The notes beneath the pieces were generated by a model that searched no databases, was not told the origin of the DNA, and saw only the letters and a list, made by a program, of their open reading frames with translations. Positions 33,735 through 34,781 of a stretch of 64,000 bases of DNA are shown piece by piece. This stretch comes from Thermomicrobiales bacterium. Its GTDB lineage: Bacteria; Chloroflexota; Chloroflexia; Thermomicrobiales; UBA6265. How positions within the stretch are numbered: the stretch's first letter is position 1; every line of letters starts with the position of its first letter. The stretch lies in NCBI GenBank assembly GCA_030447415.1, contig JAUJOZ010000005.1, positions 62,001 to 126,000 on the forward strand, written 5' to 3'. Made by a program: the position numbers and the translations under genes.

Positions 33735-34781
33735 CTACATCTCGAGCGGGGGGTAGTAGTTCTCGGCGCCGATCTTTCTCACATCGGTTAGCCAGTCGCC
33801 ACCGTAGACGTCGAGCGGGTGCTGGTCCGGTGGAAGCAGGTTCCAGGCCTGGCGCTTGTACGTCCAGTTGTCGGGTTGAAGTCGGTAAGCCTCTCGGAAG
33901 TGGTGGACAGCCTGCTCCCTAAGGTCGAGACGGTGCAGGTGCTGGCCGAGCTCGAAATGAGCCGCGGCCCTGGCTTCCTCCGCGGGGCGCGGCCGGCTTC
34001 GGCGCAGCACCTCTTCCGGAGCGAGCACGAAGCGGCTGCGGGCGCCGTGCTCGACCCAGTCCCGCAGGGCGAAGAGATACGTCTCTGCTTCGGTCCGCAA
34101 CTTCTTCACTTCAGTGATCTGCGCGACCTCTCGCGGTGAGGCGTGCGGTGGTATCTCCCTGTCTTGGTAATCAGGACGGGCCGGGTAAGCTGTCTCAGGG
34201 GGGCGTACGATGGTGCCCTTCTCGTCGATCCAGACGCCGCTCGGAACGTTGACGATACCGAACAGCTCGTCCACGACATGCGCCTGGTCGATCAGTGAGG
34301 GGTGTTCTGGCTTCGCCGCCTCAATCCACGGTCGGACGATCTCCGCTCCCCCGGTATCGAGGGCCACGGTGACGATCTCAAGGCCGCGGGGACGGAGTTC
34401 GTCGTAAAGCGCCTGCCACACGGGCAGGTCCCGATGGCAGCCTCACCACGAGGCCCATGCGACGAGCAGCACTTTGCTGCCGCGCAGGGAGCGCAGACTG
34501 AACTGCCGGCCGTGAACGTCCGGCAAGACCAGATCGGGAGCTTGCACATGCGAGAGCGTCCGACCACCCGCTTCCGGTCCAAGGCACCAGAGCCCGCTCG
34601 GTTCGTCGTACAGGAGTGGCATGCCGAGGCGCTCGGCGAGCATCCGGGCGTCGATCCCCGCCTCTGCCGCGGAGGGTATCGGGACGCAACGGTCACCCTT
34701 GCACGCCCCTTGAGGCTTGATCTGCCATCCCGTGCGCCGCTCCAGCTCAACCGGGTCGATCTCCAGCGTGTCGAGAATCAT
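33735..34781 (-). CDS. Predicted selenoprotein: thioredoxin/ResA-like redoxin with in-frame UGA (WASW-U-GC)
   Basis: A 348-residue reading frame with one TGA at codon 113 (34443-34445). The codons around it give VAWASW-[TGA]-GCHRDLPVWQ, exactly where thioredoxin-like redoxins have the first cysteine of CxxC. After TGA the same frame continues 231 residues without another stop, through a redoxin fold and a TPR-like helical part (about 245-300). A near-perfect hairpin (34414-34439) begins three bases after the UGA, matching bacterial SECIS placement. Codon 113 would be selenocysteine, with Cys115. The start ATG 34781 follows GGAGGAGGC. The role is likely a redox enzyme, cytoplasmic or membrane-linked. 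Confidence 0.85.
34414..34439 (-). promoter_or_regulatory. SECIS-like hairpin after the UGA codon
   Basis: On the minus strand, TGCCA-T-CGGG-ACCTG-CCCG-TG-TGGCA folds into a stem with two perfect arms (5 bp and 4 bp), a small internal bulge and a five-base loop. It starts three bases after the TGA at 34443-34445, the placement of bacterial SECIS elements that bind SelB. The identity is inferred from position and shape. Confidence 0.65.

Follow-up and report, generated by a model that had tools for sequence, protein, structure and literature searches.

A predicted selenoprotein of the WAxxUGC_long redoxin family in a Thermomicrobiales genome

The gene that occupies positions 33735 to 34781 (minus strand; 348 codons followed by a TAG stop) of the 64,000-nucleotide stretch of Thermomicrobiales DNA analysed here, hereafter the window, is predicted to encode a selenoprotein in which the TGA at codon 113 (34443 to 34445, minus strand) is read as selenocysteine (Sec), and to belong to the WAxxUGC_long family (NCBIfam NF041054). 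We put the probability of Sec coding at this codon, together with membership of the family, at about 93%. Sec is argued for by the full Sec machinery of the host genome and by the presence of cysteine at this codon in relatives without it, as well as by a relative in which a TAG codon is matched by a tRNA-Sec with a CUA anticodon, and by a covarying hairpin of the bacterial SECIS (bSECIS) type. An initial annotation of this DNA had already predicted a selenoprotein with an in-frame UGA, and these lines of evidence support that prediction.

The frame starts at an ATG at 34781, with a GGAGG-type ribosome site ahead of it, and ends with the TAG at 33735. Its sole in-frame stop is the TGA at codon 113, beyond which it continues for a further 235 codons, and the residues around this codon read VAWASW-U-GCHRDLP, all as had been described from first inspection of the sequence. 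The conserved sequence that had been noted on both sides of the TGA proves to be homology over 348 of 348 residues, and because of this the openness of the frame is far beyond chance. An open reading frame of 228 residues can be called downstream of the TGA, from a GTG at 34421; it was ruled out as a separate gene because the homology continues through the TGA. The neighbouring genes in the window are those for a D-Ala-D-Ala carboxypeptidase on one side and thrS on the other. No gene neighbour conserved across the family was found among the 81 loci surveyed, and since no cluster is common to more than 12 of them, no argument from operon structure is made.

The read-through product matches NF041054 at 551 bits, against a cut-off of 300 (E 1.3e-165), its residues 1-348 being aligned to profile positions 1-354. 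NCBIfam describes this family as a ResA-like WAxxUGC motif-containing protein, the U being part of the family name, and in the window protein the motif is WASWUGC, with the UGA at codon 113. Motif, domain order and UGA are the same in the window gene as in the family, with no difference of substance. Because NCBI already catalogues the family under its UGC motif, the window gene is, as judged from its sequence, a member of an already curated family and an unremarkable case, if one with very good support. UGC-containing Prx-like/TlpA selenoproteins also appear in the 2008 GOS survey (PMC2398784) and in reviews (PMC9312934, PMC13188914), and the earlier remark that Sec redoxins with WAxxUGC-like motifs are known agrees both with the curated family and with the UGC class in the relevant passages of PMC2398784. 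As described in those passages, the GOS class resembles the window protein in its AhpC-TSA/TlpA domain, its Sec-Gly-Cys site and its predicted Sec; it is a broad class, placed under pfam00578/cd02966, and the same passages contain no description of the CxxxxC region or the TPR-like tail of the window protein.

A scan of GTDB contigs yielded 80 related loci which, with the window, give 81 sequences. In the homologue alignment that the initial annotation had suggested as a check, codon 113 is TGA in 73, cysteine (TGC or TGT) in 7 and TAG in 1, and related sequence continues past the stop. The nearest kin of the window gene come from two uncultured Thermomicrobiales MAGs (80-81% identity), and TGA is found in Chloroflexota, Thermomicrobiales, Actinomycetota and one Proteobacteria-labelled MAG. 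Of the 158 genomes of the class, 12 encode a family member that scores above cut-off, and every one of these genes has a single TGA. All seven Cys genes fall into one clade (support 98/93), which comprises five Frankia, one Frankiales MAG and one Burkholderiales-labelled MAG.

The identity of the codon tracks selB and tRNA-Sec. selB scores above cut-off in 30 of 32 TGA/TAG genomes versus 0 of 7 Cys genomes (Fisher p 2e-6; 39 genomes). For tRNA-Sec, a score of 58 bits or higher is reached in 29 of 32 versus 0 of 7 (Fisher p 8e-6; 39 genomes); the 58-bit line was set post hoc, and at the Rfam cut-off of 47 bits three Frankia genomes also pass (48-49 bits). Both p values overstate independence in that the genomes are related. 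Exceptions among the TGA genomes (three have no clear tRNA-Sec and two no selB, G196 having neither) are likely due to MAG incompleteness. It is almost certainly wrong to take the TGA for a nonsense mutation or a sequencing error within a Cys gene, or for a stop that divides two genes: the 228-residue frame from GTG 34421 and the draft state of the host genome (G000; 125 contigs, 86% completeness) might be taken to suggest this, but the TGA is kept in 73 of the 81 sequences with homology on either side, and the Cys genes are confined to genomes without selB and tRNA-Sec. The conserved TGA already refutes such readings, which had been judged inadequate from the outset.

Two of the contigs that bear the family, L086 and L085, belong to Burkholderiales- and Proteobacteria-labelled MAGs, reflecting either lateral transfer or a binning error. 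A search of plasmids for the family brought up no more than distant redoxins and, in Rhodococcus plasmids, a decayed fragment of the tail. On the Rhodococcus qingshengii plasmid pLP4 (L166, 5865-6321), two broken, opposed tail fragments, annotated as hypothetical protein, look like a decayed copy of a family gene.

The host genome has a tRNA-Sec (64.7 bits; SeC(tca) in ARAGORN, anticodon UCA), together with selB (341 bits against a curated cut-off of 242), selA (491 against 268) and selD (365 against 125). The search for selA, selB, selC and selD that had been proposed earlier finds all of them, tRNA-Sec(UCA) included, and not the lack of machinery that would speak against Sec. The selD gene (L060, 1501-2430, contig C56) has an in-frame TGA of its own at the active site (UASK), and the host SelD is itself a predicted selenoprotein. 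The same genome also holds a second UGA redoxin on contig C79 (L026, 4924-5718), a protein of 264 residues with the motif WGSWUGC, a hairpin of equivalent type (GCUGCC-CGGGU-GGCAGC), a TPR-like tail and a C-terminal CGPDGC; because its NF041054 score of 147 bits is under the cut-off, it perhaps represents a separate short family. In addition, a dihydrolipoamide dehydrogenase/mercuric-reductase-like frame in L026 (3164-4700, minus strand) contains a tandem duplication of VDPMMRTNVEHVYAIGDA, which is either genuine or an assembly fault.

The one TAG at the Sec codon belongs to a WAxxUGC_long gene of Geodermatophilus sp. TF02-6 (L131, 6001-7110), an organism whose tRNA-Sec (L165, 2257-2352) has the anticodon CTA (CUA) and is labelled tRNA-Pyl by ARAGORN. 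The occurrence of tRNA-Sec(CUA) and UAG-Sec genes in Geodermatophilaceae is reported in PMC5330540; the L131 gene is like those selenoproteins in its TAG codon and CUA tRNA-Sec, whereas the window gene differs in using UGA. The UAG-Sec families named in the pertinent part of that paper are formate dehydrogenase, UGSC-motif proteins and AhpC, WAxxUGC_long not being among them there, so that the latter is possibly a UAG-Sec family beyond those of PMC5330540. Because the codon shifts with the tRNA, it is left unexplained both by a nonsense mutation and by decoding as Trp or Cys. Reassignment of TGA exists elsewhere, and decoding of this TGA as another residue such as Trp or Cys, through reassignment or leaky read-through, is conceivable on that ground; it is nevertheless very improbable here, given that the host encodes a tRNA-Sec(UCA) together with a complete set of Sec genes, that the Geodermatophilus TAG coincides with a CUA tRNA-Sec, and that genes with TGA have retained the bSECIS-type hairpin whereas it has decayed in those with Cys.

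The hairpin in question, CCUGCC-CGUGU-GGCAGG (34412 to 34428, minus strand), has its stem 14 nt and its loop 20 nt past the UGA and is the predicted SECIS of the gene. In an alignment that is gap-free past codon 113, 71 of the 73 TGA genes form all six of its pairs, as does the TAG gene, against 1 of the 7 Cys genes, and the full pairing expected from each gene's synonymous codons is 25.9 of 73; in the other 2 of 73 TGA relatives one pair is lost. Compensatory changes are seen as well, with TTG accompanied by CAA in six genes, T-A at pair 1 in L111 and C-G for G-C at pair 4 in L144, and sliding the partners lowers pairing from 99.5% to at most 72%. Codon choice is similarly skewed: Pro120 is CCC in 69 of 72 (background 40%) and Val121 is GTG in 44 of 47 (background 42%). 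Pair counting was used in place of raw folding energy, which gives a weak signal against gene-specific synonymous shuffles (mean z -0.35 for TGA and +0.17 for Cys genes); as the hairpin was picked after the sequences had been viewed, comparisons with the synonymous null, with the Cys genes and with slid partners serve as guards. The bSECIS model, in the form quoted in PMC13188914, calls for a loop of 3-9 nt with a G in its first two positions, a spacing of 16-37 nt, a stem of 4-16 bp and an energy of -7.5 kcal/mol or lower. The hairpin at 34412 to 34428 agrees with it (5-nt loop CGUGU, spacing 20 nt, 6 bp, -9.3 kcal/mol), and 12 of the 71 full hairpins, taken as the six-pair stem by itself, come out weaker than the energy limit.

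The initial annotation had assigned bSECIS geometry to a different, overlapping hairpin (34414 to 34439, minus strand). That hairpin does fold, at -20.4 kcal/mol for the 48 nt from the UGA, with 17, 8 and 2 of 200 shuffles of three fragments folding at least as well as the native sequence, but it fails the bSECIS model because its loop lies 13 nt past the UGA and has a G at neither of the first two positions. Only 4 of the 73 TGA genes have it in full, close kin L067, L068 and L075 among them, and it is mostly local to the window gene and its nearest kin. The two folds have bases in common and are therefore mutually exclusive; in isolated window mRNA the hairpin at 34414 to 34439 is the more stable (-16.7 versus -9.3 kcal/mol), whereas the conserved one forms once the first 11 nt past the UGA are omitted, as under the ribosome. 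A selenoprotein gene that used 34414 to 34439 as its SECIS would fit the stabler fold and the three kin, yet its rarity among TGA genes and its conflict with the conserved hairpin make such an arrangement unlikely, and the hairpin at 34412 to 34428 is the one that we consider as the SECIS.

The redoxin and TPR-like sequence and the N-terminal CKGDRC that had been picked out from the sequence are all present. Residues 80-192 (34206 to 34544, minus strand) make up an AhpC/TSA-redoxin domain (PF00578, E 1.3e-14), AhpC-TSA and Redoxin being the best Pfam matches of the protein, and residues 272-305 (33867 to 33968, minus strand) a TPR-like helical tail (PF07719, E 2.9e-4) that runs into an NWTYKRQAW motif; TPR_2 is matched in 32 of 49 members. 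The CKGDRC motif (34686 to 34703, minus strand) contains Cys27 and Cys32. In 49 aligned members both of these cysteines are invariant, as are codon 113 (Sec or Cys), Cys115, P180, which occupies the place of the thioredoxin cis-Pro, and several tail residues. The tail and CKGDRC are part of the normal make-up of NF041054, and not distinctive as had been supposed. An AlphaFold2 model (mean pLDDT 94.9), with helices at 255-314 in the tail, finds ResA 1st9 as its top structural match (E 1.5e-11, TMt 0.77 over 123 columns); ResA, StoA and TlpA are the nearest solved structures, aligned over residues 80-193, and the thioredoxin-like fold common to these oxidoreductases is present in the predicted model.

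The active site is W-U-G-C, and aligning it to ResA / 4nmu takes one gap, with Cys115 (34437 to 34439, minus strand) on the second Cys of CxxC and Sec one residue closer. For this reason the motif is UxC, one residue shorter than UxxC or CxxC; the earlier description was right that Sec is followed by Gly-Cys and mistaken in calling the motif CxxC-type, and neither a CxxC nor a UxxC active site of the ResA/TlpA type is present in the window protein. Known ResA/StoA/TlpA oxidoreductases carry CxxC and are extracytoplasmic. By comparison, the window protein has UxC, extra N- and C-terminal parts and no evident signal peptide, its N-terminus (MILDTLEIDPVELERRTGWQ) having no hydrophobic stretch as judged by eye, and the product is probably cytosolic.

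A probable account of how the protein is made, and a more tentative one of how it works, can be given: sequence evidence carries the Sec coding, the SECIS, the order of the domains and the predicted fold, and catalysis, localisation, electron path and partner are inferred. SelB and Sec-tRNA-Sec very probably decode the UGA as Sec under the direction of the hairpin at 34412 to 34428, which would remain folded ahead of the ribosome. In the ResA/peroxiredoxin-like domain, the attack on an oxidised substrate, whether peroxide or disulfide, would come from Sec113 of the Sec-Gly-Cys site, with Cys115 forming a selenenylsulfide to resolve it, a scheme to which we give roughly even odds. Most likely the protein acts in the cytosol as a Sec-dependent reductase or peroxidase whose resolving cysteine is Cys115. 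A mainly peroxidase function (peroxiredoxin or glutathione-peroxidase-like) rather than thiol-disulfide reduction, which is compatible with the Sec reading, is a real possibility at somewhat less than even odds: AhpC-TSA and Redoxin as best Pfam matches, a weak GSHPx match in 42 of 49 members and the name 'Prx-like' given to the UGC type in the relevant part of PMC2398784 point towards it, while the disulfide reductases ResA, TlpA and StoA as closest structures, the conserved Pro180 and the thioredoxin-like Trp before Sec point away. In the electron path, the conserved Cys27/Cys32 pair may hand electrons to the Sec-Gly-Cys site, and the helical, TPR-like tail may serve to bind a partner protein. 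More tentatively still, perhaps the family is a selenoenzyme that has been little described, in which the Sec-Gly-Cys site, the invariant N-terminal CxxxxC pair and the tail act as one cytosolic relay on a specific partner protein, the Geodermatophilus gene having changed from UGA to UAG along with its tRNA.

These findings add a firmly supported Sec gene for a Thermomicrobiales-type genome, and the corrected SECIS hairpin, the UxC motif and the UAG relative are useful additions to the picture of the family. The window gene brings little surprise but is well suited to biochemical study. The family as a whole offers a natural test of the code, in which codon 113 varies between TGA, TAG and Cys in accordance with the tRNA-Sec that each genome has.
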